Source: Saccharobesus litoralis (GTDB taxonomy: Bacteria > Pseudomonadota > Gammaproteobacteria > Enterobacterales > Alteromonadaceae). From it: a DNA stretch of 64,000 bases. Position 1 is the stretch's first letter. Each line of letters opens with the position of its first letter. The position numbers and the translations under genes were made by a program. The stretch lies in assembly GCF_003063625.1 (NCBI RefSeq), contig NZ_CP026604.1, forward strand, positions 1,798,001-1,862,000, read 5' to 3'. Below are positions 35,522 to 51,846 of the stretch, piece after piece. A model generated the notes under the pieces. That model saw only the letters and a list, made by a program, of their open reading frames with translations, was not told the DNA's origin and made no database searches.

Positions 35522-37003
35522 TTGATAGGTATAACAGTGAGATTAGGTGAGCCGTTGTTGGCGCAGTTCAAGCTAAATACGCATGCGCAATTGATTGATT
35601 ATCCAAAATATCAGCGTCAGGACTTACAAATAGGGATTGTCCACCTAGGTTTAGGTGCATTTCATCGTTCTCATCAAGCGGTCTTTACCGACCTTGCGTT
35701 AAATAAAACTCAAGATACCCGCTGGGGAATTTGTGGCGTTGCTTTTAGAAATGAAGCATTAAAAAGCGCACTTAATGAACAACAAGGTTTATATACCAAT
35801 GTTATTTGTGGTACCGAGCAACATTTCCAAGTGATTGGCTCGATTAAACATGCGTTAGTGGCGTCCAGCCAAATTGACCAAGTGTTGGCGACCATTGCTT
35901 TACCTAGCGTAAAAATGGTTTCACTGACGGTTACTGAAAAAGGCTATTGCCTGAACGAATTAGGCCAATTGAATCAAGAAATTGCCGATGTCCAGCACGA
36001 CATTGCCCACATTGAGCAGCCAAAAACCGCGGTCGGTATTTTAGTGGCCGGTTTTAAACAACGCTTTGATAATCAACAACCGGCTTTTAATGTATTGGCC
36101 TGTGATAATTTGCCTGATAACGGCGATAAATTAAAGTCAGCTGTGATTGCTATGGCCAATCATATCAATCCTGCTTTAGCGAGTTGGATTGAAAGTCAGG
36201 CATTATTCCCTAATACCATGGTGGACTGCATTACCCCTAAAACAGAAAGCGAAACATTAAATGCTGTGGAAGCTAACTTAGGGTTTAGTGATTTAGTGCC
36301 CGTGCAAAGAGAACCTTTTGCGCAATGGGTAATAGAAGATTTAGACGGCTTTGAGCGCCCTGCGTGGGAACAAGCCGGTGTATTGTTTACCAATGATGTA
36401 GCCGGTTTTGAACGCGCTAAGTTACGCATCTTAAATGGTACCCATTCAGCGCTGGCGTATATTGGCACCTTGCTGGGCTATGAAACAGTATACGACGCGA
36501 TAAGCAATGATAAAGTTCGCAGCTTTATCGCTAGCCTATTAACTTACGAAATTATCCCGAGTATAGATGCGCCAACTGGACTTGATTTAGCAAGCTATGC
36601 TGACGATATATTAAGTCGCTACCAAAACCCTGCTATTCGTCATTTATTGCTGCAAATTGCGGCAGACGGTTCGTTGAAAATTCCTGTACGCACCTTAGCC
36701 CCAATTGAAGAAAACATTAAAGCGGGACGTTCTATCGAGCAGTTAAGTATGGTGGTTGCTGCTTGGATCCGCTTTGTCGTTGCTCGCACAAAACAGGGTG
36801 ATGAAATAGCAGATCCTAAAGCACAGGCTTTAGTTTTGGCAGTTAATCGTTTTAATGGTGATGTCGCTCAAGATATTAAAGCGTTTTTATCCATTGACGG
36901 TGTGGTGTGTCAGTCATTACTGGAAAACTCAATTTTCATTGATTCAGTTGTGTCTGCTTATCACAGGTTGGATGATTTATTAGCTAGATTAGCGGCTCGC
37001 TAA
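35522..37003 (+). CDS. uxuB: Mannitol-dehydrogenase-family oxidoreductase, probable fructuronate reductase
   Basis: NAD-dependent reduction of D-fructuronate to D-mannonate in the cytoplasm is predicted. The 493-residue length suits UxuB. Family features are IVHLGLGAFHRSHQAV near residues 39-54 (nucleotide binding), VTEKGYC at 137-143, NTMVDCITP at 231-239, and the catalytic AKLRILNGTHSALAYIG with Lys300, Asn305 and His308. The frame starts with TTG at 35522; a GTG at 35537 with an ATAGG site just before it is an equally good choice. It is first in a 14-gene same-strand train that holds KduD, KduI, a TRAP transporter, gluconokinase and the LarA set. No mannonate dehydratase (UxuA) is in the window, which raises the question of where mannonate goes. 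Altronate- or mannitol-type substrates are alternatives. Confidence 0.88.
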   Translation: MIGITVRLGEPLLAQFKLNTHAQLIDYPKYQRQDLQIGIVHLGLGAFHRSHQAVFTDLALNKTQDTRWGICGVAFRNEALKSALNEQQGLYTNVICGTEQHFQVIGSIKHALVASSQIDQVLATIALPSVKMVSLTVTEKGYCLNELGQLNQEIADVQHDIAHIEQPKTAVGILVAGFKQRFDNQQPAFNVLACDNLPDNGDKLKSAVIAMANHINPALASWIESQALFPNTMVDCITPKTESETLNAVEANLGFSDLVPVQREPFAQWVIEDLDGFERPAWEQAGVLFTNDVAGFERAKLRILNGTHSALAYIGTLLGYETVYDAISNDKVRSFIASLLTYEIIPSIDAPTGLDLASYADDILSRYQNPAIRHLLLQIAADGSLKIPVRTLAPIEENIKAGRSIEQLSMVVAAWIRFVVARTKQGDEIADPKAQALVLAVNRFNGDVAQDIKAFLSIDGVVCQSLLENSIFIDSVVSAYHRLDDLLARLAAR

Positions 37004-37118
37004 ATGGATTTGTCGCTGGGCTTTTATTTAATGAAAGCACATTTAAAAAACTAGATGCTGTCGCAGAGTAACGTTAAAGCAACAGCCAATACGTAATAGA
37101 AAAAATAAAAGGTTTATC

Positions 37119-37889
37119 ATGCTTGATGCAAATAAGATGTTCTCTTTACAAGGTAAAACAGCCTTAGTCACTGGTAGTAGTCGAGGCTTAGGTCAAGCAC
37201 TGGCTTTAGGTTTGGCTAACGCCGGTGCCAAGGTAGTTTGTAGCAGCTCTCGCATGGGCGGCTGTGATGATACGGTGCAAAAAATTACTGAAATGGGTGG
37301 CGAAGCGATCCAGATTGCAGCTGATTTAAACGACAGTGAGTCGGTTAGCGCACTTGCCCAATCTGCTCTTGAATGGCAAGGCAGTATTGATGTGTTAATT
37401 AATAACGGCGGCACTATTGCTCGCTATCCGGCTGTAGACTTTCCTGAAGACGAATGGCTAAAAGTCATTAATATCAATTTAAACAATGCATTTTTGTTAA
37501 GCCGCTTAATTGGCAAAAAAATGATTGAGCAAGGCAGTGGTAAAATCGTCAATATCGCCTCTATGTTGTCTTACTCAGGCGGTATTACTGTACCTGCTTA
37601 CACAGCCAGTAAACACGGTATTGCCGGTGTAACCAAAGCATTAGCCAACGAGTGGGCCGCTAACAATATTCAAGTTAATGCTATTGCGCCAGGTTATTTT
37701 AGAACGGATAACACACAAGCATTACAAGACAATCCTGAGCGTAATCGCGACATTCAAAATCGTATACCCGCTGGTCAATGGGGTGAGCCAGAGCAATTGG
37801 TTGGGGCTGCGGTATTTTTATCGTCTGCTGCAAGTGACTATGTCAATGGCCACATATTGGCTGTTGATGGCGGTTGGTTAGCTCGCTAA
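37119..37889 (+). CDS. kduD: 2-dehydro-3-deoxy-D-gluconate 5-dehydrogenase (KduD)
   Basis: Short-chain dehydrogenase that reduces 2,5-diketo-3-deoxygluconate to KDG in uronate lyase-product catabolism. 256 residues: NAD loop TGSSRGLG at 18-25, NNGGTIARYPA, and catalytic Ser148, Tyr161 and Lys165 in IASMLSYSGG and YTASKHG. The C-terminus SDYVNGHILAVDGGWLAR closely follows the E. coli KduD ending. The kduI gene follows 17 bases later. KduD enzymes are also known to act on other keto-uronates, so a side role in fructuronate reduction is possible. Confidence 0.95.
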   Translation: MLDANKMFSLQGKTALVTGSSRGLGQALALGLANAGAKVVCSSSRMGGCDDTVQKITEMGGEAIQIAADLNDSESVSALAQSALEWQGSIDVLINNGGTIARYPAVDFPEDEWLKVININLNNAFLLSRLIGKKMIEQGSGKIVNIASMLSYSGGITVPAYTASKHGIAGVTKALANEWAANNIQVNAIAPGYFRTDNTQALQDNPERNRDIQNRIPAGQWGEPEQLVGAAVFLSSAASDYVNGHILAVDGGWLAR

Positions 37890-37906
37890 ATATTGAGGAA
37901 AGAAAA

Positions 37907-38749
37907 ATGACAGTTAATTGTACTACGCGCTACGCCATTGGCCGCAATGAAGTTAAAACCTTTGTAACCGAACAGTTACGTGACGAGTTTTTGTGCCAAG
38001 ACTTTATGACGCAAGATCAGATCACTTTAATCTATACTCACTATGACAGATACATTGTCGGTGGTGTGGTGCCGGTTGATGAGGCGTTAAGCTTAACCGC
38101 TATCGATGAAACAAAGTCTGAACACTTTTTAGACCGTCGTGAGTTAGGCGTAGTTAATGTGGGTGGTTTAGGCACTGTTACTATTGACGGTACTGAATAT
38201 CAGTTGGCAGCTAAAGAGGCCTTATATGTTGGTCAAGGTAATAAAGAGGTTGTGTTTAGCAGTGTTGACAAGGCTAACCCTGCTCACTTTTATATAAACT
38301 CGTCACCCGCTCATAAAGCATTTCCGATTAAAAAGGTTGGTTTGCAGGATGCTAATATTTTAGAACTGGGTAGTTTAGAAACGTCTAATCAGCGCCGTAT
38401 TCACCAGCTTATTGTCAATGGTGTGGTTGATACCTGTCAGTTACAAATGGGGATCACTTGCCTACAACCGGGTAGCGTTTGGAATACGATGCCTGCGCAT
38501 CAACATGATCGCCGAATGGAAGCTTATTTTTATTTTGATTTACCTGAGAATCAAGCCGTTTGTCATTTTATGGGCGAACCACAGGAAACGCGTCATATTT
38601 GGGTTGCCAATGAGCAAGCTGTCGTATCACCGCCTTGGTCTATCCATTCGGGGTGTGGTACGTCTAACTACTCATTTGTATGGGGTATGGCAGGTGAAAA
38701 CTTGGCCTATGATGATATGGATGTTCATCAAGCAAGCGATTTACGATAA
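37907..38749 (+). CDS. kduI: 5-dehydro-4-deoxy-D-glucuronate isomerase (KduI)
   Basis: Converts 5-keto-4-deoxyuronate from lyase products to 2,5-diketo-3-deoxygluconate. The ATG at 37907 follows GAGGAAAG; the protein is 280 residues, near the 278 of E. coli. The zinc site is intact: His198 and His200 in MPAHQHDRR, Glu205, and His247 in PPWSIHSGCG, a constant offset of two from E. coli numbering. The tail KduI motif WGMAGENLAYDDMD is also conserved. It is paired with kduD as usual. KduI is also reported to isomerise hexuronates, which could feed fructuronate to the reductase at 35522 in the absence of a visible UxaC. Confidence 0.95.
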   Translation: MTVNCTTRYAIGRNEVKTFVTEQLRDEFLCQDFMTQDQITLIYTHYDRYIVGGVVPVDEALSLTAIDETKSEHFLDRRELGVVNVGGLGTVTIDGTEYQLAAKEALYVGQGNKEVVFSSVDKANPAHFYINSSPAHKAFPIKKVGLQDANILELGSLETSNQRRIHQLIVNGVVDTCQLQMGITCLQPGSVWNTMPAHQHDRRMEAYFYFDLPENQAVCHFMGEPQETRHIWVANEQAVVSPPWSIHSGCGTSNYSFVWGMAGENLAYDDMDVHQASDLR

Positions 38750-38821
38750 CAGTTTGTGTGTGCGAAGGCAGTGGAGGATGGATTTATCTCTCTGCCTTCT
38801 TTTTAAAACGAGGCATTAAAA

Positions 38822-39811
38822 ATGCGGTGGATTAAAACGAGTTTTCTCATCGGTTTAACATGGTTAATCGTTGGCTGTATGGATGGTGGCGATAAGGTTG
38901 TGTTACGCATGGGACACACCTTAGATACAGAGCATAGTGTACATAAAGCTATGGTGCACATGGCGCAGCGCTTGGCTCATTACTCTAATGGCACAATGGA
39001 AATTATAATCTATCCGAGTGCTCAGTTAGGTAACGAACGCGAAATGGTCGAATTACTGCAAATTGGTAGTTTAGCCATGGCTAAAGTGTCGGCTGCGACG
39101 ATTGAGGGCTTCGTACCTGAGATGAAGGTATTTAGTCTGCCGTATATTTTTCAAAGTCGTGATCATCGTTGGTCGGTATTAAATAGCGATATCGGCAAAA
39201 GCCTGTTGTATGAGGCGCAAAAAGCGCATTTGGTAGGACTCGGTTTTTATGATGCAGGCAGTCGTAGTTTTTATATGACTGACACTAAAGTTGAGACGCC
39301 TAAAGATTTAATTAGTAAAAAAATCCGCGTGATGGAAAGCCAAACAGCGGTGCGTATGGTTGAAGCCTTTGGCGGTGCAGCAACGCCAATTTCATTTGGT
39401 GAGTTATATGCAGCGTTGCAGCAAGGCGTGGTAGACGGTGCCGAAAACAATCCCCCTTCGTTTTATTTGTCGCGCCACTACGAAATCAGTCAATATTATA
39501 TTTTAAACGAACATACCTCTGTTCCCGATGTTGTCATGGGCAGTAAGCATATTTATGACAATTTAACTGCCCAGCAAAAACAATGGCTTGAATTAGCCAT
39601 GGCTGACTCCGTTGAATTACAAAAAGAGCTATGGCGAGCAGGCGAGCTAGAAGCCCTGGCCGAAGTGAAAAAAGCTGGGGTTGAGGTGATTTATCCTGAT
39701 AAAGCCCCTTTTGTTAATGCGGTAAAAGATTTTCATGCATCCTTTAAAGGGACGCGTATTGGCAATTACTTAGAGCGTATTGCAGCTATGTATAGGGGGG
39801 ATAATGGGTAA
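38822..39811 (+). CDS. dctP: TRAP transporter solute-binding protein (DctP family), lipoprotein
   Basis: Captures an organic acid in the periplasm for the TRAP membrane subunits that follow. 329 residues. The N-terminus ends in a lipobox (IVGC, Cys at about 19), so it is membrane-anchored rather than free. DctP features are LRMGHTLDTEHSVHKAM, the conserved carboxylate-binding arginine in KKIRVMESQTAVRMVEAFGG, FGELYAALQQGVVDGAENNP, and the SRHYEISQYY motif. The closest known functions with this pattern are uptake of glucuronate and galacturonate. It overlaps the next gene by 8 bases. Confidence 0.94.
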   Translation: MRWIKTSFLIGLTWLIVGCMDGGDKVVLRMGHTLDTEHSVHKAMVHMAQRLAHYSNGTMEIIIYPSAQLGNEREMVELLQIGSLAMAKVSAATIEGFVPEMKVFSLPYIFQSRDHRWSVLNSDIGKSLLYEAQKAHLVGLGFYDAGSRSFYMTDTKVETPKDLISKKIRVMESQTAVRMVEAFGGAATPISFGELYAALQQGVVDGAENNPPSFYLSRHYEISQYYILNEHTSVPDVVMGSKHIYDNLTAQQKQWLELAMADSVELQKELWRAGELEALAEVKKAGVEVIYPDKAPFVNAVKDFHASFKGTRIGNYLERIAAMYRGDNG

Positions 39812-40295
39812 TTTAGACTCAGTGGTATTTCATATCGAGGCTTTACTGAAAAAGTTACTGGTTGCGCTTATGGCGATTATTGTTGTTGGGGTAACTTGGC
39901 AAGTGTTTAGTCGTTATGTATTGCAGTCGCCTAGCTCAACAACCGAAGAAGCAGCGCGTTTTGTTCTTATTTGGATCAGCTTGTTTGGTGCGGCTTATGC
40001 TTATCAATTGGGATCTCATTTAGGTTTGGATGTTGTGGTAAACAAACTGTCTGAGCGCGGTAAGTTGTTGGCGGCAACCTTGTCTCATAGCTTGGTTGTT
40101 GGCTTTGCTATTTTTGTAATGGTGTACGGCGGAATATCTTTGGTCGATTTAACCATGACACCAGTACAAACCTCGGCAGCGCTTGGCTTGAAAATGGGTT
40201 ACGTTTATTTTGCTGTCCCTATCGCCGGTGCCATTATTGCTTTATTTGGTATTAATAAAGTTCGCCACCTCATTACTCAAATTAAATCCTTGTAG
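39804..40295 (+). CDS. dctQ: TRAP transporter small membrane subunit (DctQ)
   Basis: 163 residues from the ATG at 39804, with an AGGGGGG site inside the end of dctP. Four hydrophobic helices lie at about 18-38, 53-72, 90-112 and 130-150. The family segment FSRYVLQSPSSTTEEAARFVLIW is typical of DctQ, including the E-E-x-A-R motif. It couples with DctP and DctM for sodium-driven uronate uptake. Confidence 0.93.
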   Translation: MGNLDSVVFHIEALLKKLLVALMAIIVVGVTWQVFSRYVLQSPSSTTEEAARFVLIWISLFGAAYAYQLGSHLGLDVVVNKLSERGKLLAATLSHSLVVGFAIFVMVYGGISLVDLTMTPVQTSAALGLKMGYVYFAVPIAGAIIALFGINKVRHLITQIKSL

Positions 40296-40302
40296 GTTCA
40301 TC

Positions 40303-41601
40303 ATGGAATATTCAGGCATTGTATTAGTTGTCACTTTCTTTGCGTTATTGCTATTGAACGTGCCGATCTCCTTTAGCATAGGTATTGCCACTGCGGTTAC
40401 CATGCTGTTCAGTATCGATTTTGCGCCAGCCGTGACTACCGTTTCTCAGCGTTTGGCTGGTGGGGTCAACAGCTTTGTATTATTGGCTATCCCATTTTTT
40501 GTGCTTTCAGGTTTGATCATGGGACGCGGCGGAATAGCCAAGCGGTTAATCGAATGTGCCATGGCATTGATTGGTATGTTACCTGGTGGTTTAGCGCTAG
40601 TTAACGTGCTGTCTTGTACTATGTTTGGTGCTATTTCCGGTTCAGCCGTGGCGGCCACGAGTGCGATTGGTAGCTTTATGATCCCGCAAATGGAACAAAA
40701 AGGTTACGACAAAAACTTTGCTACTGCGGTGACCAGTGCAGCGGCAACAACCGGTATGTTGATACCACCGAGCAATATTTTAATTATTTACGCCATCGCT
40801 AGTGGCGGGGTGTCAATTGCGGCGTTATTTGTGGCGGGTTATTTACCGGGTATTTTGGTGGCATTAGCACTGATGATTGTTTGTGCTGGTTATTCAAAAC
40901 TGCATGGTTACCCAACGGGTGATCGTTTACCTTTCAGTATTGTTATTGAAAAAGTGGTTGCGGCCCTACCCAGCTTATTGCTTATTTTTATTGTCATCGG
41001 CGGCATTATAGGTGGTGTGTTTACCGCGACTGAAGCGGGCGCCATTGCTGTACTGTATTCTTTAATTTTATCCGTTGGTATTTACAAAGAAGTTAAGATT
41101 AGTGAGCTTTCTAGCATTTTACTTAAAGCCGCTGAAACCACAGCCATTGTTATGTTGCTGATTGGCGCGTCGTCGGCTATGTCTTGGATTATGTCCTATG
41201 TCAATATTCCACAAGCTATCAGCGAGTTCTTATTAACCCTAAGTGAAAACCCGATTTTAATTCTACTTTTGATTAATTTGTGTTTGATTTTAATTGGCGC
41301 CTTTATGGATATGACGCCTGCGGTATTAATTTTCACACCGATCTTTTTACCGGTTGCTGAGCAGCTTGGTATGTCGCCGTTACATTTCGGTATCATGATA
41401 GTACTTAACTTGTCGATTGGTTTATGTTCGCCACCAGTTGGTTCCGTATTATTTGTTGGCTGTGCCGTGGCAAAAACCTCAATAGAGAAAATCATTAAGC
41501 CGTTATTACCTCTGTATTTTGCCATGTTTTGTGTACTCATGTTGGTAACTTACGTGCCAGCGATTAGTGAGTTTTTACCGGCATTATTCGGTTTAGGTTA
41601 A
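40303..41601 (+). CDS. dctM: TRAP transporter large membrane subunit (DctM)
   Basis: 432 residues from the ATG at 40303; longer in-frame starts at 40210 lie inside dctQ and are unlikely. About 12 membrane segments are present. Diagnostic pieces are LNVPISFSIGIA near the start, SGSAVAATSAIGSFMIPQM and GMLIPPSNILIIYA in the middle, and LGMSPLHFGIMIVLNLSIG with CSPPVGSVLFVG near the end. It forms the transport channel for the acid bound by the lipoprotein DctP. Confidence 0.95.
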   Translation: MEYSGIVLVVTFFALLLLNVPISFSIGIATAVTMLFSIDFAPAVTTVSQRLAGGVNSFVLLAIPFFVLSGLIMGRGGIAKRLIECAMALIGMLPGGLALVNVLSCTMFGAISGSAVAATSAIGSFMIPQMEQKGYDKNFATAVTSAAATTGMLIPPSNILIIYAIASGGVSIAALFVAGYLPGILVALALMIVCAGYSKLHGYPTGDRLPFSIVIEKVVAALPSLLLIFIVIGGIIGGVFTATEAGAIAVLYSLILSVGIYKEVKISELSSILLKAAETTAIVMLLIGASSAMSWIMSYVNIPQAISEFLLTLSENPILILLLINLCLILIGAFMDMTPAVLIFTPIFLPVAEQLGMSPLHFGIMIVLNLSIGLCSPPVGSVLFVGCAVAKTSIEKIIKPLLPLYFAMFCVLMLVTYVPAISEFLPALFGLG

Positions 41602-41612
41602 GGATAAGTTAG

Positions 41613-42092
41613 ATGATCTATGTCGTAATGGGAGTAAGTGGTTGCGGAAAATCAACCGTAGGGCAAATGCTAGCTGAACAGCTCAATGTCGCTTTTTATG
41701 ATGCTGATGATTTTCACCCTAAGGCCAATGTCGCCAAGATGACGGCAGGCATGCCGTTAAACGATGAAGATAGATGGCCTTGGTTGCAAAGTTTGGCTGA
41801 CAATATGGCGCAGTGGCAACGTGATGGCGGTGCGGTATTAGCTTGCTCAGCGTTAAAGCAGAGCTATCGTGATTTATTGGCGTCAGTTGATAGCCAAGTT
41901 GTGCAATTTATCTATTTACAAGGTTCGTTTGCGACTTTGCTTGCTCGCTTAAAAGGGCGTAAAGGTCATTTTATGCAAGCTGACCTTTTGCAATCTCAGT
42001 TAGATACGTTGGAAGAACCAGCATCCGCTATTACCGTTTCGATTGATCAACCCGTAGATGAGCTTGTCTCCGATATTTTAAAGGCTTTATAA
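41613..42092 (+). CDS. gntK: Gluconokinase
   Basis: ATP-dependent phosphorylation of D-gluconate to 6-phosphogluconate. 159 residues with the P-loop GVSGCGKST at 7-15, the family's DADDFHPKANVAKM at 30-43, PLNDEDRWPWL at 48-58, and CSALKQSYRDLL. It lies 11 bases after dctM and 4 bases before the LarA homologue, so the two are translated in close company. No gluconate permease, gluconate dehydrogenase or Entner-Doudoroff gene is present here, so gluconate must arise inside the cell or come through the TRAP system. This placement is the main clue to the LarA homologue's substrate. Confidence 0.95.
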   Translation: MIYVVMGVSGCGKSTVGQMLAEQLNVAFYDADDFHPKANVAKMTAGMPLNDEDRWPWLQSLADNMAQWQRDGGAVLACSALKQSYRDLLASVDSQVVQFIYLQGSFATLLARLKGRKGHFMQADLLQSQLDTLEEPASAITVSIDQPVDELVSDILKAL

Positions 42093-42096
42093 TTTT

Positions 42097-43386
42097 ATGA
42101 CTTTTTCTCTTCATCAAACGGCTGAAAACGCCCAGATTAACGACACTCAATTATGCGCGTTAATTGACCAATATATTGCTACGCGTTTATCGACAGCAAA
42201 ACGTGTGTTGCTATTACCGCCAGACTTAACCCGTTTTCATTCTAAAGCAGGATTCATCACTCAGCACTTATATCAACAACTTAAAGACCAATGTGAGATC
42301 CAAATTATGCCAGCGCTTGGCACTCATGATCCGATGACCGACAAGGAATTGGATATGATGTTTGGCACAGATATTCCAAAGTCTTGTTTTAAACCGCATT
42401 TTTGGCGCAAAGATGTAAAAAAAGTTGGGCAAATCAGCTCAGAGCGTATGTTGGCTTTATCTGAAGGTAAACTTAATTACACCATGGATGTTGGGGTGAA
42501 TAAGTTGCTATTAGATGAAGATTGGGATGCCATTGTTTCAATAGGGCAAATTGTGCCGCACGAAGTGATTGGCATGGCTAACTATACTAAGAATATTCTC
42601 ATTGGTGTTGGCGGTGAAGATACTATACATAAGTCTCACTTTTTGGGGGCTGCGTATGGTATGGAGCGTATTATGGGGCGTATTTTAACCCCAGTGCGTC
42701 AGGCATTGAATGAAGGGTTTGATCAATATCTAGCTCACTTACCTATTGATTTTATTTTTACAGTATTGGGTAAACATCAGGATGAGTTAGCGCTTAAAGG
42801 TGTATTTTGTGGCAATAGTTATGCGACCTACGAGCAAGCCAGTTTATTAAGCCAGCAGCAAAACCTAAATTTATTAGATAAGCCAATTAAAAAAGCCGTG
42901 GTGTATCTTGATCCGACAGAATTTAAAACCACTTGGTTAGGCAATAAGTCGATTTATCGTACTCGCATGGCGATTGCCGATGGTGGTGAATTAATTGTGT
43001 TGGCACCTGGCTTAAAACGCTTTGGTGAAGACATATCTATTGACGGCTTGATCCGTAAATTTGGTTACCGCACGACGGACGAAACCTTAGCGGCAATTGA
43101 CAATAATCCTGATTTAAAAGACAACTTGTCTGCGGCGGCTCATTTGATCCACGGCACGAGTGATAATCGTTTTACTGTGACTTATTGTCCAAAAGATGAA
43201 GTGAGTCAGCAAGAAATTGAGCAAGTTAACTATCAATATTGCCATTACGATGAGATGGTTCAACGTTACCCAATTGAGTCTTTAAAAAATGGCTGGAATA
43301 CCCTGCCTGACGGCGAAGAGATTTTCTATGTGAGTAATCCGGCGCTAGGGTTATGGACAACCAAAGAAAACTTTGAAAATCAGTAA
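42097..43386 (+). CDS. LarA-superfamily nickel-pincer racemase/epimerase, probable D-mannonate/D-gluconate 2-epimerase
   Basis: 429 residues of the lactate racemase superfamily. Expected functional positions are present: D43 and R46 in PPDLTRFHSK, catalytic-type His77 in LGTHDPMTDKEL, His155 in PHEVIG, the cofactor-linking Lys165 in YTKNILIGVGG, and the nickel-ligand region TIHKSH (His178 and His181). The usual D-x-T-R-P is D-L-T-R-F here, so the substrate pocket differs from lactate racemase. LarA homologues acting as D-gluconate 2-epimerases are established in the literature. Between gluconokinase and the LarC/E/B set, in an operon headed by a fructuronate reductase, the natural role is C2 epimerisation of D-mannonate to D-gluconate. 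The superfamily is seen directly; the substrate is inferred. Lactate racemisation is the main alternative. Confidence 0.85.
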   Translation: MTFSLHQTAENAQINDTQLCALIDQYIATRLSTAKRVLLLPPDLTRFHSKAGFITQHLYQQLKDQCEIQIMPALGTHDPMTDKELDMMFGTDIPKSCFKPHFWRKDVKKVGQISSERMLALSEGKLNYTMDVGVNKLLLDEDWDAIVSIGQIVPHEVIGMANYTKNILIGVGGEDTIHKSHFLGAAYGMERIMGRILTPVRQALNEGFDQYLAHLPIDFIFTVLGKHQDELALKGVFCGNSYATYEQASLLSQQQNLNLLDKPIKKAVVYLDPTEFKTTWLGNKSIYRTRMAIADGGELIVLAPGLKRFGEDISIDGLIRKFGYRTTDETLAAIDNNPDLKDNLSAAAHLIHGTSDNRFTVTYCPKDEVSQQEIEQVNYQYCHYDEMVQRYPIESLKNGWNTLPDGEEIFYVSNPALGLWTTKENFENQ

Positions 43387-43421
43387 TTATCAGCCTATTT
43401 TAAAGTTTTAAGAGGTTAATT

Positions 43422-44708: not shown

Positions 44709-44726
44709 TTTTGTGGGGTAAGTATT

Positions 44727-45599
44727 ATGCTAGTTGATATTCGAATGTTGCTTGATCCACAGCTTAGTGAAAAATTTAATAAGTTAGTGGCGTTTGCTGA
44801 TCGTTACTCGCAAATATCTGTTGCTGTTAGCGGTGGTATCGACAGTATGTTGCTAACCTATTTACTGCATCGTTTCTCTAATAGTCAAATTACCCCTGTA
44901 CATGCTTACTCACCGGCTGTACCTGCGGCTGCTTTTGCCCGCGTACAGTTTTATGCTGAAGAATATCATTGGCCATTAAAAGTGATTGATGCTAATGAGT
45001 TAGATGACGAAAATTATCGACGTAATCCGGTAAATCGTTGTTATTTTTGTAAAAGCAATTTGTATGAGCGAATTTTTAGCACGACAAAGTCGGTTATTTT
45101 TTCTGGCACTAATGTTGATGATCTCGATGACTATCGTCCAGGGTTAACTGCAGCCAAAGAGCGTAAAGTCCAGCACCCTTATGTTGAAGCAGGTATTAGT
45201 AAATCGGATATTTATCAGTTAGCTACTGCATTTAAATTAACCGAGTTACAATCCTTACCTGCTCAACCCTGTCTCGCTAGCCGCATTGAAACGGGGATCC
45301 AAGTTAGCAAGCAGGATATGCGTTTTATAGACAATATTGAAAATCAAACCCGAGCGTATTTTCCTAACTTGCAACATATTCGCTGCCGTATTACTCACCA
45401 AGGCGTGATGATTGAATTAGATCATTTGCCGGAACAAAAAATATTAAACCAATTTACAACCTACATAACGCCAACTTGTCGCAAAAAAGGCTACAAGTTA
45501 CTTGGGGTTCGACCGTATAAAAAAGGCGCGGCTTTTTTAACAAATAATCCGCACTCAATGCCGGCTCAGGTTATCGCGATTAAAGAGGTTAGAGCATGA
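44727..45599 (+). CDS. larE: Nickel-pincer cofactor sulfur transferase LarE (three-cysteine type)
   Basis: Installs the sulfur atoms of the pincer nucleotide. 290 residues with the PP-loop AVSGGIDSM at 33-41. Cys182 in the PCLASRIETG motif equals the position of the sacrificial cysteine of the Lactobacillus enzyme. Two further cysteines, Cys105 and Cys108 in NRCYFCKSNLYE, make the CxxC + C set associated with LarE proteins that carry a [4Fe-4S] cluster and can recycle sulfur. It overlaps larB by four bases (ATGA). Assignment is firm; the cluster type is inference. Confidence 0.95.
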   Translation: MLVDIRMLLDPQLSEKFNKLVAFADRYSQISVAVSGGIDSMLLTYLLHRFSNSQITPVHAYSPAVPAAAFARVQFYAEEYHWPLKVIDANELDDENYRRNPVNRCYFCKSNLYERIFSTTKSVIFSGTNVDDLDDYRPGLTAAKERKVQHPYVEAGISKSDIYQLATAFKLTELQSLPAQPCLASRIETGIQVSKQDMRFIDNIENQTRAYFPNLQHIRCRITHQGVMIELDHLPEQKILNQFTTYITPTCRKKGYKLLGVRPYKKGAAFLTNNPHSMPAQVIAIKEVRA

Positions 45600-46267
45600 A
45601 TGATGCATTTATTTGGGATGCGGAGCGAGCCAGTCGCACAGGTGTAGCTGAAGCGGTTTTTTGTCAAGGCAAAGCCAATGGCGATTTAATTGCGATTATT
45701 GAGCACAATTTAAGTCAGCAACGGCCTTTATTCATGACACGTTTATCACAAGAGCAGTGGTGTGCGTTGCTTGAACAGCAGCAGTCAATTTTAGATTATG
45801 ACCCGCATTCACAAACAGCCATGGCCAATGTTAAAGCCAATAGTGTCGATACCAAGTCGGTTTGTATTGTTTGTGCAGGCACATCTGACCTTAGTGTAGC
45901 AAAAGAAGCTCAGCGCAGTTTGTTGTTTAACGGCGTTACTGCGCCACTTATTGCAGATGTCGGTGTTGCAGGCCTTTGGCGCTTAATGGATAAGATAGAG
46001 CTTATCCGCCAGTACAAAATGATAATCGCGGTTGCGGGTATGGAAGGCGCGCTGTTTAGTGTACTGGCCGGCCTTGTGACTGCGCCCATTGTGGCCGTAC
46101 CAAGCGCGGTGGGTTATGGGGTTTCTGCTCATGGCCAAGCTGCGTTGTCGAGTGCCCTTGCATCCTGTTCTCCGGGTATTATGACGGTCAATATCAATAA
46201 TGGCTTTGGTGCAGCCGCTTGCGTGGTGAAAACCTTGCGTCAATTTAAGCAATTAGAGGATCAGTAA
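45596..46267 (+). CDS. larB: Nickel-pincer cofactor biosynthesis protein LarB
   Basis: Carboxylates and hydrolyses nicotinic acid adenine dinucleotide, the first step to the pincer nucleotide. 223 residues. The C-terminal two thirds resemble AIR carboxylase (PurE-like): VCIVCAGTSDLSVAKEAQ, AVAGMEGALFSVLAGLV, PSAVGYGVSAHGQAALSSAL. Cys191 in LASCSPGIMTVNINNGFGAA corresponds to the catalytic cysteine region of the family. It overlaps larE and the following permease gene, so the three are translationally coupled. Confidence 0.94.
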   Translation: MNDAFIWDAERASRTGVAEAVFCQGKANGDLIAIIEHNLSQQRPLFMTRLSQEQWCALLEQQQSILDYDPHSQTAMANVKANSVDTKSVCIVCAGTSDLSVAKEAQRSLLFNGVTAPLIADVGVAGLWRLMDKIELIRQYKMIIAVAGMEGALFSVLAGLVTAPIVAVPSAVGYGVSAHGQAALSSALASCSPGIMTVNINNGFGAAACVVKTLRQFKQLEDQ

Positions 46268-46893
46268 TGATGGATATGCAAACACTTAGTGCGCTAGCGT
46301 TAGGCTTATTCGTTGGGGTATTTCACGCGTTCGATGCTGATCATGTTATGGCTATGTCATCCTACGCCAATCAAACGCAAAAGCGATTAATGGTTTTAAA
46401 ATATGCCAGCAAATGGGGATTAGGTCATGGCGGTATTTTATTACTGCTGGCATTAACATTGGTTTTAGTTGGTTATCAATTACCTAACTGGTTTGTGCAT
46501 TCTGCTGAATTAGCGGTCGGACTATTATTAATCTATTTAGGCGCGCGGTTATTTATTTTATTTAAGCGTAAGCGCTTAGTGGGTTATCAAGACTCATCCG
46601 CTGATAAACAGACAAAAAAAGCTGACCATGTGCCTTTATTCATTGGTATGTTGCATGGTGTTGCCGGCAGTGCGCCTATGCTGGCTTTGCTGCCAAGTAT
46701 GTTAGATACGCAATTTTTACAACATATTGGCCTTTTTTCAGTGGGTTGTTTGGTAGGTATGTTTTGTTTTGGTTTGGGGTTTTCGCAAATACAAGCCAAA
46801 CTTAACTTGCACGCCAAGGCATCTCAAGGGTTTACTTTGGGTCTTGGCTCTTTATCAATAGGTTTGGGTGGTTACTGGCTAATCCTTGGTTAG
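46267..46893 (+). CDS. NicO/UreH-like nickel permease
   Basis: Inner-membrane transporter of 208 residues with about six helices. The nickel signature H-x4-D-H is in the first helix (His20, Asp25, His26 in FHAFDADHVMAM). It is followed by WGLGHGGILL and GMLHGVAGSAPMLAL, typical of the UreH/HupE-like branch of nickel/cobalt permeases. It overlaps larB by one base, so nickel uptake is tied to cofactor making. The Lactobacillus lar operon also carries its own nickel transporter, but of a different (ABC-like) type. Confidence 0.88.
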   Translation: MMDMQTLSALALGLFVGVFHAFDADHVMAMSSYANQTQKRLMVLKYASKWGLGHGGILLLLALTLVLVGYQLPNWFVHSAELAVGLLLIYLGARLFILFKRKRLVGYQDSSADKQTKKADHVPLFIGMLHGVAGSAPMLALLPSMLDTQFLQHIGLFSVGCLVGMFCFGLGFSQIQAKLNLHAKASQGFTLGLGSLSIGLGGYWLILG

Positions 46894-46926
46894 TTTAAGT
46901 ACTTTTATATTGAGCGGAGTTTAAAG

Positions 46927-47814
46927 ATGAAAATAGCCGATATTGTTTCAACAAATAGGGTTAAACGTTACATAAGCCTATTGTGTTTATTTGGCGCTTT
47001 CATTGGTAATGGGTTTGCTCAAACGATCAATATATATATTGAAGAATTATCTCTTAAGGAATACAACCAACATTTGTTAACAATGGCATTACGCCACGCT
47101 AATGCGCAACACATTAAAATTAATGTTATTAATAAACAGTTGTCACGAGCTCAAGCATTTAGCCAGATGGATGCCGGTTTAATTGACGTTATGTGGCTTA
47201 ACACCAATCAAGAAATAGAAGACCGCTTTATTCCTGTTCGTGTGCCCATTTTAAAAGGCCTAATGAGTTATCGCACCTTGATGATCCGTGAAGGGCAAGA
47301 AGCGGTATTTAAAGATGTTGAAACGTTTGAACAACTTAAAGCGATCCGCTCTGGGGTTGGACGTTTTTGGACAACCACCAAGGTGTTTAATGCCGAAGGG
47401 ATTAATACAGTACTCACCACAAAATCGAGAAATTTATACCCTATGCTTGAAGGTGGCCGTTTTGATTATATTCCGCGCGGTGTCATGGAAATAGCGCCAG
47501 AGCTTGAAAAATACAATCATTTACCGCTTAAGCTAGAAACCACTATCCTGTTACGTTTACCAACGGCGGTTTATCCATTTGTCACCAAAGCCAAGCCTGA
47601 ACTTGCCACAATCATCGAGCAAGGCATGTTGAAGTCTATTGATTCAGGCGAGTTTGATCAATACTTTGAATCGACCACCTTATACAAGGATACGCTGAAA
47701 ATTATTAGTCAGCACAAATGGAAAGTGATCCCGATTAATAATCCCATTTTGCCTAAAGAAACGCCATTGGATGAAGCAAAACTTTGGGTTGATTTCAGCC
47801 AATATTTACAATAA
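46927..47814 (+). CDS. Orphan periplasmic solute-binding-like protein (2)
   Basis: 295 residues with a signal peptide (YISLLCLFGAFIGNGFAQ) and a GGAG site. The pattern is again type 2 periplasmic-binding: INIYIEELSLKEYNQHLL, VPILKGLMSYRTLMIREGQ, and RFDYIPRGVMEIAPELEKY. It is the paralogue of the protein at 34175. It lies 33 bases after the nickel permease and 83 before the PL38-like lyase, on the same strand, without a cognate permease. Roles such as nickel-complex capture or ligand sensing for a histidine kinase elsewhere are possible; none is shown by sequence. Confidence 0.75.
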   Translation: MKIADIVSTNRVKRYISLLCLFGAFIGNGFAQTINIYIEELSLKEYNQHLLTMALRHANAQHIKINVINKQLSRAQAFSQMDAGLIDVMWLNTNQEIEDRFIPVRVPILKGLMSYRTLMIREGQEAVFKDVETFEQLKAIRSGVGRFWTTTKVFNAEGINTVLTTKSRNLYPMLEGGRFDYIPRGVMEIAPELEKYNHLPLKLETTILLRLPTAVYPFVTKAKPELATIIEQGMLKSIDSGEFDQYFESTTLYKDTLKIISQHKWKVIPINNPILPKETPLDEAKLWVDFSQYLQ

Positions 47815-47897
47815 CGCTTAGAGATTACAGTAAAAGCGATAAGGCTATAGCTATTGTTAAATAGCTTGCTAGAGCTAATGTTAATAAGGTAACCATA

Positions 47898-49220
47898 ATG
47901 ATAAAACGCGCTACGGCACTGCTAGCGGCAGTGGGCTGTTTGACAGCTTGTGCTTTAAACGACCAAACACCATCTGCCAATAAATTAACATCTGTTAATC
48001 CAATCATTATTAATGCTGAGTGGTTAAATCAAGGCTTACAAAGGTATAGCGACAACGAACCGGTCACCCGCCGAGTGGTTGATAGTTTAATTAGTGCGGC
48101 CGACTCAGCACTAGAGGCGAAGCCGGTTTCTGTGCAGGATAAAAATTTAATCCCGCCCAGCGGTAACAAAGCCGATTATATTAGTGTCGGACCTTATTGG
48201 TGGCCTGATCCCGATAAGCCAGATGGTTTGCCTTGGATTAAAAAAGATGGCCAAGTGAACCCCGCGAGTAAGGGTTCTGGATCAGACAAACCTGCAATGA
48301 ATGACATGTTGATGCAAATTAGCAGTTTGTCTTTAGCCTATCATTATACCAAGCGTGAGCAGTATGCTCAGCACGCGGCTTTACTCATTGATACTTGGTT
48401 TTTAAACCCACAAACTGCGATGAATCCGTCTTTAAACTATGGGCAAGCTGTACCCGGTAAAAGTGACGGTCGTCCCTATGGTGTAATCGAAACACGTTGG
48501 TACATGCGTATGTTAGACGATGTTGCGTTACTTGCACCTTCGGGTGCTTTATCAACCCGCCAACAAACCCAATTAAAAACATGGTTTGCTGATTATTTAC
48601 AATGGCTAACGACAAACCCCATTGGGCAGCAAGCTTGTCAGGCCCATAATAATCACGGTACTTATTGTGAGGCTCAGGTTGCTTTTTATGCTTTGTATAC
48701 AGGGCAGAAGTCATTAGCTAAAACATTTGTTGATAAAGTGTTTAAACAGCGTTTGGCTCAACAAGTTGATGAGCGTGGCGCACAACCGGATGAATTAGCG
48801 CGTACTCGGCCTATTCATTATTCGCTGTTTAATTTAGAGGCCTACTTTATTGCTGCTCGTGTTGCTGACCAACTTGGTTTAGATATGTGGCGTTATCAAA
48901 CAGAACAAGGCATAGGTTTACAGCAAATGATCGACTTTATTTTGCCGGCTATTAAACAGCAAGGTTATTGGCAAAATGTGAAAGATAAAAAAATGCGTTT
49001 AGGTCGCCTTTACTATTTCTTACAGCTTGCATTTGATAAGTATCAACACCCTAAATATTTTAATGGCATGCAAGATTTGTTGGCCATTGTTGCAACCGAA
49101 GACAGGGCTGAACTGGCGCAATGTTTATTGATACAACCAAAACCTGATTTTATAACACTAGATGTGCTGAAACATATCGACCCAACTGGCAGTAAATCAG
49201 CATATCGTTGTTATTATTAG
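47898..49220 (+). CDS. Alginate_lyase-domain lipoprotein, PL38-like uronan lyase
   Basis: 440 residues with a lipoprotein signal (LTAC, Cys18). The alpha/alpha-toroid alginate-lyase domain (as in PL5/PL38) fits YISVGPYWWPDPDKPDGLPW at 94-113, the SLSLAYHY helix, RPYGVIETRWYMRMLDDV, the catalytic-type AHNNHGTYCEAQ at 249-260, and RTRPIHYSLFNLEAY with a catalytic-type Tyr/His set. PL38 members cleave glucuronan and alginate-like polyuronates. As a periplasm-facing enzyme at the end of the uronate operon, it would cut imported oligouronates to unsaturated monomers for KduI/KduD. The PL38 assignment and substrate are inferred from pattern. Confidence 0.8.
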   Translation: MIKRATALLAAVGCLTACALNDQTPSANKLTSVNPIIINAEWLNQGLQRYSDNEPVTRRVVDSLISAADSALEAKPVSVQDKNLIPPSGNKADYISVGPYWWPDPDKPDGLPWIKKDGQVNPASKGSGSDKPAMNDMLMQISSLSLAYHYTKREQYAQHAALLIDTWFLNPQTAMNPSLNYGQAVPGKSDGRPYGVIETRWYMRMLDDVALLAPSGALSTRQQTQLKTWFADYLQWLTTNPIGQQACQAHNNHGTYCEAQVAFYALYTGQKSLAKTFVDKVFKQRLAQQVDERGAQPDELARTRPIHYSLFNLEAYFIAARVADQLGLDMWRYQTEQGIGLQQMIDFILPAIKQQGYWQNVKDKKMRLGRLYYFLQLAFDKYQHPKYFNGMQDLLAIVATEDRAELAQCLLIQPKPDFITLDVLKHIDPTGSKSAYRCYY

Positions 49221-49559: not shown

Positions 49560-50276
49560 ATGATGGAACTAACCGCTATTAAAACAGACAGGCTGTACGT
49601 AAAGGTTGCTGATCAAATTACCACTTTGGTTGAGCAGCAAGTGTTAAAGCCTGGCAGTCGCTTACCCTCTGAACGAACGCTGGCGGAACAACTTAATGTC
49701 AGTCGTCCAATTATTCGCGAAGCCATGATTGCGCTTGAATTGTCGGGTATTATTGAGATCCGCACTGGGTCAGGCATTTTTATCAATGAGGTGCAAACTA
49801 AGTTACCGGTATTGGATAAAGGGGCTGGGCCATTTGAAATTTTGCAACTTAGGTTAGTTGTTGAAACCGAAGCTTGTGCATTGGCCGCGCAATATATTAG
49901 TCAAGCTCAATTATTGGCATTGCAACAGGCCATTTCAGGTATGGAAGGCGCAGTAAACTCGAAAGAATGTGCTGAAGCTTTTGATCATTTATTTCATTCC
50001 ATTATAGCGGATGCGTCAAACAACAGCGCCATTAGCTCAGTGATCAATTGGCTTTGGGAGCTACGTAAACAATCTGATCTAAGCCGCTCTTTTTCATCAC
50101 GCTTGTTAAAACGTGGTGTGCATCCATCGATCCACGATCACAAAGAAATTTATCAAGCCTTATCGCAAGGCGATAGCGAAAAATCAAGGCAAGCCATGCG
50201 TAAGCATATAGAGCAAGCGACAGAAGACGCAGCGACCTTTTTTGACTCTACGTCATTCAAGAAGATCAAAGTTTAA
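49560..50276 (+). CDS. GntR-family regulator, FadR subfamily (3), ExuR/UxuR-like
   Basis: 238 residues. The wHTH is PGSRLPSERTLAEQLNVSRP, then IREAMIALELSGIIEIRTGS. The FCD domain has LRLVVETEACALAAQYI, FDHLFHSIIADASNN and the HPSIHDHKEIYQALSQGDSEKSR histidine helix. It is a close paralogue of the protein at 26707. It sits between the uronate operon and gnd, whose promoter 12 bases after its stop carries a TTGGTAAGGCCA site. It is the best candidate for the regulator of that motif; probable ligands are fructuronate, mannonate or gluconate (6-phospho)derivatives. Confidence 0.9.
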   Translation: MMELTAIKTDRLYVKVADQITTLVEQQVLKPGSRLPSERTLAEQLNVSRPIIREAMIALELSGIIEIRTGSGIFINEVQTKLPVLDKGAGPFEILQLRLVVETEACALAAQYISQAQLLALQQAISGMEGAVNSKECAEAFDHLFHSIIADASNNSAISSVINWLWELRKQSDLSRSFSSRLLKRGVHPSIHDHKEIYQALSQGDSEKSRQAMRKHIEQATEDAATFFDSTSFKKIKV

Positions 50277-50287
50277 ATGTATCTTTA

Positions 50288-50328
50288 TTGGTAAGGCCAC
50301 TTTACAATCATATTTCTAGGTGTACAAT
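50288..50328 (+). promoter_or_regulatory. Operator plus promoter of gnd
   Basis: TTGGTAAGGCCA at 50288-50299 is followed immediately by TTTACA (50301-50306), a 16-base spacer and TACAAT (50323-50328). Spacing is the same as at the uronate operon promoter, so both are likely controlled by the same protein. Confidence 0.75.
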
Positions 50329-50391
50329 GCGTATATGTCGGCTTTTGGGTATAAGAGCCAATTTAACGTCTCTAAACTGGAACTGTGAAAC

Positions 50392-51846
50392 ATGAAACAA
50401 AAATCAGATATTGGCTTAGTGGGATTAGCTGTAATGGGTGAAAACCTAATCTTAAACATGGAGTCAAAAGGCTTTACGGTAACGGCGTTTAATCGTAGTT
50501 ACGCTAAAGTTGAGAAGTTTTTACACGGCCGAGCAGAAGGTAAAAATATTCGTGGTGCTGCAAGTATTGCAGAGTTGGTCGACTCATTAGCAACGCCACG
50601 TAAAGTCATGTTAATGGTTAAAGCTGGCCAGCCCGTCGACGATTTTATTGAGTTACTCGTACCGCATTTAGATGAAGGCGACATCATTATTGATGGCGGT
50701 AACACACATTACCCAGACACTATCCGTCGTGAAGCTTACCTTAAAGAAAAAGGTATTCACTTTGTCGGTGCGGGTGTGTCAGGTGGTGAAGAAGGCGCTT
50801 TGAAAGGGCCTTCAATTATGCCGGGTGGCTCGTTAGAAGCATGGCAACAGGTTAAGCCTATCTTCCAAGGTATTTCAGCTAAAGTTGAAGGTGGTGAGCC
50901 TTGTTGTGACTATGTTGGTGAAAATGGCGCTGGCCACTTCGTTAAAATGGTACACAACGGTATTGAATACGGCGACATGCAATTGTTGTGTGAAGCGTAT
51001 CAAATCATGAAAGAAGTGGTTGGTTTGTCAGCCGACGAAATTCATCAAGTATTCAAACAATGGAATACCACTGAATTAGATTCTTACCTAGTTGAAATCT
51101 CACGCGATATCATGGCGTTTAAAGATGAAGACGGTGAGCCATTAGTTGAGAAAATTCTTGATACGGCTGGTCAAAAAGGTACAGGTAAATGGACAGGGGT
51201 TGTCGCCCTAGATTTAGGTGTTCCGCTTACCCTTATCGCCGAATCAGTCTTCGCTCGTTGTATTTCGGCATTAAAAGACGAGCGTGTTGCAGCATCTAAG
51301 ATTTTAGCAGGCCCAGAAAAGTCATTCACTGGCGACAAAGCTGCGTTTATCGAAGACTTACGTCAAGCAGTACTAGCGTCGAAAATTGTTAGTTACGCAC
51401 AAGGTTATACCCTAATGCGTGAAGCGGCGAAAGAGTTCAACTGGAACCTTAACTACGGCGGTATCGCGTTAATGTGGCGTGGAGGTTGTATTATTCGCTC
51501 GGCTTTCTTAGGTGACATCAAAAAAGCGTTTGAGAAGAACCCAGAGCTTAATAACTTACTACTGGATGACTACTTTAAAGAGACTGTCGTCAACGCTCAA
51601 TCAAGCTGGCGTAATGTCGCAGCGACAGCAATTGCTAATGGTGTGCCAGCGCCTTGCTTAACTGCGGCACTTAACTACTTTGATGGTTACCGTACAGCGC
51701 GTTTACCCGCTAACTTGTTACAAGCGCAACGTGATTACTTTGGTGCTCACACTTATGAGCGTACAGACAAACCACGTGGTGAATTCTTCCATACTAACTG
51801 GACAGGGCGAGGGGGCGATACCGCCTCTACTACTTACGACGTGTAA
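50392..51846 (+). CDS. gnd: 6-phosphogluconate dehydrogenase, decarboxylating
   Basis: Oxidises 6-phosphogluconate to ribulose-5-phosphate with loss of CO2. 484 residues, full length. The nucleotide-binding start is IGLVGLAVMGENLILNM, then IDGGNTHYPDT, the signature GVSGGEEGALKGPSIMPGG (catalytic Lys in GHFVKMVHNGIEYGDMQL), and WRGGCIIRS with the C-terminal tail motif. Its promoter shares the operator of the uronate operon, so it is induced with gluconokinase and the LarA homologue. This argues that 6-phosphogluconate from uronates is sent to the pentose phosphate route rather than through Entner-Doudoroff alone. Confidence 0.97.
   Translation: MKQKSDIGLVGLAVMGENLILNMESKGFTVTAFNRSYAKVEKFLHGRAEGKNIRGAASIAELVDSLATPRKVMLMVKAGQPVDDFIELLVPHLDEGDIIIDGGNTHYPDTIRREAYLKEKGIHFVGAGVSGGEEGALKGPSIMPGGSLEAWQQVKPIFQGISAKVEGGEPCCDYVGENGAGHFVKMVHNGIEYGDMQLLCEAYQIMKEVVGLSADEIHQVFKQWNTTELDSYLVEISRDIMAFKDEDGEPLVEKILDTAGQKGTGKWTGVVALDLGVPLTLIAESVFARCISALKDERVAASKILAGPEKSFTGDKAAFIEDLRQAVLASKIVSYAQGYTLMREAAKEFNWNLNYGGIALMWRGGCIIRSAFLGDIKKAFEKNPELNNLLLDDYFKETVVNAQSSWRNVAATAIANGVPAPCLTAALNYFDGYRTARLPANLLQAQRDYFGAHTYERTDKPRGEFFHTNWTGRGGDTASTTYDV

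Follow-up and report, generated by a model that had tools for sequence, protein, structure and literature searches.

What does a LarA-superfamily protein do in an operon that opens with a gene of the mannitol dehydrogenase family, carries a gluconokinase gene (gntK) directly before larA, and is followed downstream by a gene for 6-phosphogluconate dehydrogenase (gnd)? The question is raised by a 64,000-nucleotide stretch of the Saccharobesus litoralis genome (contig NZ_CP026604.1, positions 1,798,001 to 1,862,000; G000:C1:1798001-1862000 in our numbering, where G denotes genomes and L loci), hereafter the window, from a genome of two contigs and 5.87 Mb. The operon consists of eleven closely spaced plus-strand genes, from the reductase gene to larB (35522-46267), and a nicO-like gene, ending at 46893, is the twelfth. 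An earlier note, made from the sequence alone, had proposed that the LarA homologue connects mannonate with gluconate and thereby allows glucuronate to be degraded without the mannonate dehydratase UxuA. We consider it likely that the operon is a uronate-catabolic one of a polysaccharide-degrading marine gammaproteobacterium of the Catenovulum type, with a LarA-linked branch from mannonate to the pentose phosphates that would run beside the dehydratase route. The order mannonate, gluconate, 6-phosphogluconate, ribulose-5-phosphate is well supported, although not proven. Gene content, homology, predicted fold, operator, linkage and a gene fusion were observed; from these we infer the substrates, the direction, the cellular use and the regulator.

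The LarA homologue matched the NF052594 model 'NPN_18_hexonate', a putative hexonate epimerase of group 18, over nearly the full model (623.6 bits, cut-off 500). By sequence and by predicted fold, its nearest solved relative is Thermotoga GntE2, a D-mannonate/D-gluconate epimerase. In a sequence search of the PDB, 4nar was the best match at 1.4e-31, with Mar2 (0.0037) and LarA (0.15) far behind; 4nar is the GntE2 structure according to Desguin 2020 (PMC7583248). A fold model was built from the window protein together with 23 of its relatives (mean predicted local distance difference test score 93), and when this model was compared with 1000 chains, 4nar was again the top match (Z 43.8, 395 residues, root-mean-square deviation 2.2), followed by lactate racemases at Z 32.5 and lower. 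The two proteins are 27% identical across a 332-residue stretch of GntE2. Using the residue roles and the signature of groups 18 to 20 described by Desguin 2020 (PMC7583248), the alignment with GntE2 showed counterparts of the residues that bind the nickel-pincer nucleotide (NPN; R46, K165, and H181) and of the catalytic residues (D43, H77, H155, and K284). The loop mark of groups 18 to 20, E156-V157 after H155, and their helix alpha-11 mark, W280, are also present. Epimerisation of D-mannonate in vitro is reported for groups 19 and 20, while for group 18 the paper hypothesises 'a hexonate' (PMC7583248), and a further GntE comes from an oomycete (PMC11770544).

Profile searches of 246 genomes of the same taxonomic family detected group 18 in 14 of them (5 of 52 genera), in 18 copies. 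The gntK gene lies directly 5' of larA, with a gap of -4 to +4 bp, in 16 copies, and the two genes are fused in 2. The gntK::larA fusions, of 589 amino acids on the second contig of the source genome (L036:9359-11128) and of 591 amino acids in Catenovulum maritimum Q1 (L040), both align over the full length of the two window proteins, and the source-genome fusion exceeds both cut-offs. This genome encodes two gluconokinases of the GntK/IdnK type above the TIGR01313 cut-off, both attached to LarA, and a third, weak match of 27.7 bits. Within 10 kb of larA in the fetched stretches, the cofactor genes larE, larB, and larC were found with 18, 17, and 14 of the 18 copies, respectively, followed by UxuB-like reductase (9/18), uxaC (8/18), TRAP (tripartite ATP-independent periplasmic) transporter (7/18), gnd (6/18), and UxaE (6/18) genes. 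The cluster on contig 2 comprises uxaC, gnd, UxaE (PF16257), nicO, larB, larE, and gntK::larA, with a further reductase approximately 20 kb away, and probably serves galacturonate by the same kind of route. It has no larC, and because the only larC match in the genome is that of the window operon, the contig-2 cluster must borrow it.

The coupling of kinase and LarA homologue also bears on the order of the steps. GntK could act first, phosphorylating D-mannonate, after which the LarA homologue would epimerise 6-phosphomannonate to 6-phosphogluconate; we regard this as unlikely, and hold the same of the corollary that gntK::larA is a bifunctional mannonate kinase/nickel-dependent 6-phosphomannonate 2-epimerase. 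Both activities were measured in extracts of Lactobacillus suebicus, which made no gluconate from mannonate (PMC6978723), and the attachment to LarA of both GntK-type kinases above the cut-off fits this order. The Michaelis constants of the assayed GntE enzymes for mannonate are high (120 and 17 mM, PMC7583248), that of LarAH15 being 9.4 mM (PMC11770544). However, GntE2 accepts unphosphorylated mannonate with a kcat of 197 per s (PMC7583248), and LarAH15 acts on it at 111 per s (PMC11770544).

Group 18 occurs outside the gammaproteobacteria, and its gene neighbours there provide the best context evidence. A scan of named genomes, which is no census, was restricted to the best 80 loci; 8 were gammaproteobacterial, and the titles of the remaining 72 gave a different phylum, in most cases Lentisphaerota or Bacteroidota, or gave none. 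On the same strand and within 4 kb of the group-18 gene, 38 of these 72 loci had gnd, 24 an SDR (short-chain dehydrogenase/reductase) mannonate oxidoreductase, 29 a PfkB kinase, and 47 any of these partners; among the 28 loci with full 4-kb flanks the numbers were 19, 12, 13, and 21, respectively. Leaving out the four loci that supplied the SDR and PfkB queries gave 34, 21, and 25 of 68 for gnd, SDR, and PfkB. Across all 80 loci, the density of gnd on both strands was 6.3 per 100 kb inside the 4 kb and 0.4 outside. All four SDR proteins examined passed NF006132 'D-mannonate oxidoreductase'. An unrelated mannonate oxidoreductase thus takes the place of the UxuB-like enzyme while LarA and often Gnd are kept, which points to mannonate as the input and 6-phosphogluconate as the end. 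In the other phyla, PfkB may stand in for GntK or may act on 2-keto-3-deoxygluconate (KDG). The same context bears on whether another pair of C2 epimers is converted, such as altronate/allonate or idonate/gulonate, formed from tagaturonate or iduronate. The hypothesis of just 'a hexonate' for group 18 (PMC7583248) would accommodate this, as would the partly uxaA-linked sister clade of the reductase described below; such a pair would not feed gluconokinase or Gnd, however, and the SDR mannonate oxidoreductase and UxaE partners indicate mannonate, making this alternative rather improbable. Family, fold, residues, the coupling and fusion with gntK, and the context in other phyla together leave the central claim of the earlier note, a link from mannonate to gluconate through the LarA homologue, well supported.

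The operon and gnd share an operator. The 16-bp sequence ATTGGTAAGGCCACTT has just two exact occurrences in the whole 5.87-Mb genome, at 35421 and at 50287, where 0.003 would be expected from base composition, and the note's observation of one operator at both promoters thereby holds. Before the operon, it overlaps the -35-like hexamer of a promoter-like pair, TTGACT-16-TATACT (35435-35462); before gnd, it lies over the -35-like hexamer of the pair TTTACA-16-TACAAT, read by eye. The LarA homologue, gntK, gnd, and reductase genes consequently stand behind one shared exact operator, the gene set of the Thermotoga type. Of the 17 other family loci, 8 have a copy with no more than 2 mismatches ahead of the cluster: exact in L027, L028, L031, and L043, with one mismatch in L033, L034, and L041, and with two in L037. 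In L034, the operator lies between uxuB and gntK. That of L043 precedes a GH88-like gene, which is followed by the TRAP genes, and more same-strand genes lie further upstream. Because the family loci share descent, this recurrence indicates conservation and does not provide independent counts. Seven loci have a LacI-type regulator (L029, L035, L036, L038, L039, L040, and L042), and in these the operator was not found before the cluster. Sites with up to 2 mismatches also lie away from cluster starts (L028 at 174, 8737, and 18035; L033 at 4829; L040 at 13254). Genome-wide, copies with up to 3 mismatches numbered 66, against 81 for a reversed control, and we therefore used only exact sites and sites adjoining cluster genes. 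A generic TTGGT-NN-ACCAA operator had given 61 loose matches against a shuffle mean of 39 and was dropped in favour of the exact 16-mer. A search for repeats around the operator found nothing.

The GntR/FCD regulator encoded at 49560..50276 probably controls both promoters through this operator. Two more GntR/FCD regulators are encoded in the window at 25842-26534 (+) and 26707-27405 (+); the latter shares 49% identity with the regulator at 49560, and the operator might therefore be read by either of these two. Two further operator copies, each with 2 mismatches and both overlooked in the earlier note, lie in the window: one at 29921, 16 bp before the start of the open reading frame of the minus-strand gene 27602-29905, and one at 33599, before a TonB-receptor-like gene with a plug domain (30551-33526). 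The product of 27602-29905 (-), a protein of 767 amino acids whose single Pfam match is to thrombospondin type 3 repeats, may belong to the operator regulon as a polysaccharide-active protein of the cell surface. A separate set of repeats sharing TACATCCATGTA was observed at 49284-49385, 35119-35377, and 60746. Those before the GntR gene are a tandem pair of 51 bp with near-identical copies, and those before the operon a pair of 55 bp with 89% identity. With up to 3 mismatches allowed, this 16-mer is matched 7 times in the window, compared with 0.19 times in shuffled sequence.

Several observations weigh against the proposed branch. In the available parts of PMC7583248, PMC11770544, and PMC12611868, no activity of a group-18 enzyme was found, that of PMC12611868 containing nothing on this group. 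The reductase scored 361.5 bits against the fructuronate reductase model NF011611, below the cut-off of 603, and since it falls short we name it UxuB-like only; none of the 246 family genomes passes this cut-off, and the protein is 40% identical to E. coli UxuB and 26% to UxaB. In a tree of 38 sequences, nine reductases form one clade with support of 0.99, eight of them beside larA and one 20 kb away, and the sister clade of these larA-linked proteins mixes uxuA- and uxaA-linked members. The L034 reductase, also beside larA, falls in this mixed clade. The presence of uxaA-linked proteins there means that the reductase could reduce tagaturonate; the tree does not settle between fructuronate and tagaturonate, and it was dropped as proof of substrate. 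The operator was not found before the cluster of L030, a close relative. The count of gluconokinases covers the GntK/IdnK type, FGGY-type kinases lying outside the search. In the other phyla, 25 of the 72 loci lack every expected partner in the 4-kb range; many of these are cut by contig ends, but 7 belong to the 28 with full flanks. The six kinases examined there are PfkB proteins nearest to KDG kinases, and L093 also has an adjoining GntK, so that PfkB need not phosphorylate gluconate. Catenovulum sp. CCB-QB4, whose genome is similar in having consecutive UxuB, KduD, and KduI accessions, three glucuronate isomerases (one of them plasmid-borne), and UxaE on the plasmid, did not grow on saturated galacturonate, and no glucuronate test was found in the available text of that paper (PMC7953866); its authors judged the epimerase pathway perhaps non-functional on account of its scattered genes, and the same text contains no 'racemase' and one 'gntE', on Thermotoga. 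Finally, the source genome has a uxuA gene of its own (393 amino acids, G000:C1:686532-687695, TIGR00695), beside a UxuR-like regulator, in addition to three uxaC genes, three matches to the KDPG/KHG aldolase family, and four gnd genes (one of them at 50392..51846). On this gene content, the shunt is not required.

The absence of uxuA stated in the earlier note is thus true of the window alone. The uxuA locus (L044, G000:C1:677001-697000; G000:C1:696104-697501) has canonical uxuA, UxuR-like regulator, and uxaC genes away from the operon. No operator copy within 3 mismatches was found in these 20 kb, and joint induction of uxuA with the operon, which the earlier note had named as counting against its proposal, is accordingly not indicated by the sequence. 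All 14 group-18 genomes have uxaC and a reductase match; 2 have UxuA, 9 a ManD-type dehydratase, and 3 (G009, G084, and G192) neither UxuA nor an NF011654 match above cut-off, a number that rises to 6 if only ManD proteins above 700 bits are counted. We compared them with 47 genomes having uxaC and reductase and lacking group 18, setting aside G033, G079, G104, G168, and G205 for having weak reductase matches only; the UxuA matches include partial ones in G003, G079, and G226. UxuA alone was present in 2 of 14 genomes with the gene against 22 of 47 without it (Fisher P 0.03). With the unrelated ManD-type proteins above the NF011654 cut-off included, the counts were 11 of 14 against 37 of 47, and with only the high-scoring ManD subgroup, 8 of 14 against 37 of 47 (P 0.16). 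Three of the nine ManD-type proteins in group-18 genomes belong to the lower-scoring subgroup; the one compared with the ManD equivalog model (L037) passes it. Replacement of UxuA was rejected on these counts, as the depletion seen among the 246 genomes vanished once ManD-type dehydratases were added.

The strong form of the proposal, in which the shunt replaces mannonate dehydratase as the sole route for glucuronate, is therefore highly improbable. The lack of a UxuA match (PF03786) in 12 of the 14 group-18 genomes, and of either dehydratase in 3 (6 by ManD subgroup), speaks for it. Against it, the comparison with the 47 genomes shows no clear depletion and the source genome has uxuA, uxaC, and aldolase genes, which refutes it there at gene level; the claim of glucuronate breakdown without UxuA fails on this genome and on the likely dehydratase in 11 of the 14. 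With a likely dehydratase in so many of these genomes, the group-18 gene would add a parallel branch, as in G040 (L034), and is no clear replacement for the dehydratase across genomes. The presence of a likely dehydratase in most of them would equally suit a reverse use, in which external gluconate is epimerised to mannonate and burned via UxuA or ManD and KDG. An epimerase is reversible, and in G040 (L034) uxuA-uxaC stands back to back with kdgK-uxuB-gntK-larA-larC-larE-larB-nicO-gnd, so that uxuA adjoins the cluster. But gluconokinase and Gnd of the same regulon would drain the gluconate first, uxuA of the source genome lies at a separate locus without the operator, and the transporter resembles uronate binders; we judge reverse use quite improbable.

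Under the parallel-branch reading, the TRAP transporter would import uronates. Unsaturated units would pass through KduI and KduD to KDG, and saturated units would become fructuronate through UxaC, encoded elsewhere, or perhaps KduI, which may act on glucuronate as reported for E. coli (PMC3578941). The UxuB-like enzyme would reduce fructuronate to D-mannonate, and the group-18 LarA homologue would invert C2 to give D-gluconate, using a nickel-pincer cofactor made by LarB, LarC, and LarE. GntK would phosphorylate D-gluconate, and the co-regulated Gnd would oxidise the product to ribulose-5-phosphate, CO2, and NADPH. The GntR/FCD regulator would control both promoters through the shared operator, and the route would run beside, and not instead of, the mannonate dehydratase route.

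All genes named in the earlier note were found by profile search where it had placed them, GntK, the LarA homologue, LarC, LarE, LarB, and Gnd above curated cut-offs (Table 1). The reductase and nickel permease genes are likewise present, their names being likely only, as both score below the curated cut-offs; for the NicO-like protein, this makes nickel permease a likely name and not an established one. Counting this one, 11 of the 18 family copies of larA have such a gene no more than 10 kb away. LarC of the operon is the only match to PF01969 in the genome. KduD, KduI, and the TRAP proteins DctP, DctQ, and DctM are members of the operon that the earlier note had overlooked, and they suggest that it also takes unsaturated uronates made by lyases. 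The true start of KduI is probably an inner ATG at 37907. The transporter resembles uronate importers in sequence: 4x8r and 4n8y, the second and third best PDB matches of DctP, are reported with bound glucuronate and galacturonate (PMC11668362).

Table 1. Coordinates of the operon, its operator sites and the adjoining downstream genes in the window.
Feature	Position	Strand	Basis
Operator ATTGGTAAGGCCACTT, overlapping the operon -35	35421..35436	+	Exact genome match; promoter-like pair 35435-35462
UxuB-like reductase, mannitol dehydrogenase family	35522..37003	+	PF01232/PF08125; best NCBIfam model fructuronate reductase, below cut-off; LarA-linked clade, support 0.99
KduD, 2-dehydro-3-deoxy-D-gluconate 5-dehydrogenase	37119..37889	+	TIGR01832, 347.3 vs cut-off 338.85
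KduI, 5-dehydro-4-deoxy-D-glucuronate isomerase	37874..38749	+	NF002091, 436.3 vs cut-off 250
DctP, TRAP solute-binding protein	38822..39811	+	PF03480; PDB matches 4x8r, 4n8y
DctQ, TRAP small membrane subunit	39780..40295	+	PF04290
DctM, TRAP large membrane subunit	40210..41601	+	PF06808
GntK gluconokinase, 4 bp 5' of larA	41613..42092	+	TIGR01313, 190.5 vs cut-off 113.75 bits
LarA homologue, group 18; putative nickel-pincer D-mannonate/D-gluconate 2-epimerase	42097..43386	+	NF052594, 623.6 vs 500; 4nar best by sequence and fold; active-site residues
LarC, nickel insertion	43422..44708	+	TIGR00299 and NF052512 above cut-offs; LarC1 and LarC2 parts in a single open reading frame
LarE, sacrificial sulfur transferase	44727..45599	+	TIGR00268, 227.3 vs 150
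LarB	45596..46267	+	NF033503, 240.4 vs 175
NicO-like putative nickel permease	46267..46893	+	PF03824, E 1.1e-4, 22.1 bits vs cut-off 27.7
Protein without Pfam match, signal-peptide-like start (by eye)	46927..47814	+	61-66% relatives in L027, L028, L030
Polysaccharide lyase with alginate lyase domain	47898..49220	+	PF05426, 7.9e-80; PDB 3nfv, 8bdq
GntR/FCD regulator, candidate operator reader	49560..50276	+	PF00392, PF07729
Second exact operator, before gnd	50287..50302	+	Exact genome match
Gnd, NADP 6-phosphogluconate dehydrogenase	50392..51846	+	TIGR00873, 781.3 vs 426.7
DUF4861 protein	51906..52811	+	PF16153; within 10 kb of larA in 4/18 family copies, this one counted

Among the neighbouring genes, 34175-35023 (-) and 46927-47814 (+) flank the operon and encode related proteins (33% identical) without a Pfam match, and relatives of the latter adjoin group-18 clusters in L027, L028, and L030. 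A Cache-domain chemoreceptor is encoded at 16220-17956 (+). L028 has a similar chemoreceptor close to its group-18 cluster, as does L027 when read by eye, a hint of chemotaxis towards the substrate. Two sulfatase genes lie downstream (53846-57609, +); they suggest that the polysaccharide is sulfated and contains uronates, as ulvan does.

The earlier note had called such a pathway new to textbooks, which holds in part only. For Thermotoga maritima, Rodionova 2012 proposed epimerisation of mannonate to gluconate followed by gluconokinase and Gnd (via PMC6978723), with an operon aldH-pelB-gnd-uxaRED-gntEK under the GntR regulator UxaR (PMC3750489), and GntE1 and GntE2 were reported in 2020 to epimerise D-mannonate in vitro, as a probable entry of mannonate to the pentose phosphate pathway (PMC7583248). 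The two systems are alike in having gnd, gntK, and a LarA homologue proposed to convert mannonate to gluconate, with a GntR regulator that is a candidate only in the present case, uxuA being included in the Thermotoga regulon. Thermotoga, however, uses a group-20 GntE, UxaE, and UxaD, whereas here we find group 18, an UxuB-like reductase, KduD/KduI, a TRAP transporter, and larC, larE, and larB in the operon. Of the D-gluconate 2-epimerases GntE1 (LarAH19) and GntE2 (LarAH20), the protein was compared with GntE2, which it resembles in fold, in NPN-binding and catalytic residues, in loop E, and in the alpha-11 tryptophan. It passes NF052594, the gntK::larA fusion on the second contig being a departure from that family. 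The galacturonate pathway of L. suebicus similarly joins mannonate to 6-phosphogluconate, but in that organism the substrate is phosphorylated before it is epimerised, by genes that are not assigned (PMC6978723). The canonical UxaC-UxuB-UxuA-KdgK-Eda pathway shares the first steps and dehydrates mannonate, which would here be epimerised; the source genome keeps its uxaC, uxuA, and aldolase genes alongside. In titles and abstract openings of the open-licence literature, we found no paper that assigns a substrate to group 18, reports a fusion of gntK with larA, or traces the spread of this branch. What remains new is a LarA group unassayed in the literature consulted, its fusion to a kinase, cofactor genes within the operon, a dedicated gnd under the same operator, and an occurrence in several phyla.

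Group 18 thereby gains a specific, testable substrate and, through a natural fusion, a tie to gluconokinase, and the LarA homologue becomes a candidate for the link in the CCB-QB4 epimerase pathway that the available part of PMC7953866 leaves unnamed. If the kinase acted first, a phosphorylated sugar acid would be a substrate of the nickel-pincer family, which we did not find in the literature searched; the GntK/LarA pair would then provide candidate genes for the L. suebicus activities, and the route would stand beside gnd in Bacteroidota and Lentisphaerota. The results suggest that a nickel-dependent entry of uronates to the pentose phosphate pathway extends beyond Thermotoga, across marine and rumen polysaccharide degraders. 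If this is true, uronates of algae and plants would supply these bacteria with NADPH and pentose phosphates in a manner dependent on nickel.

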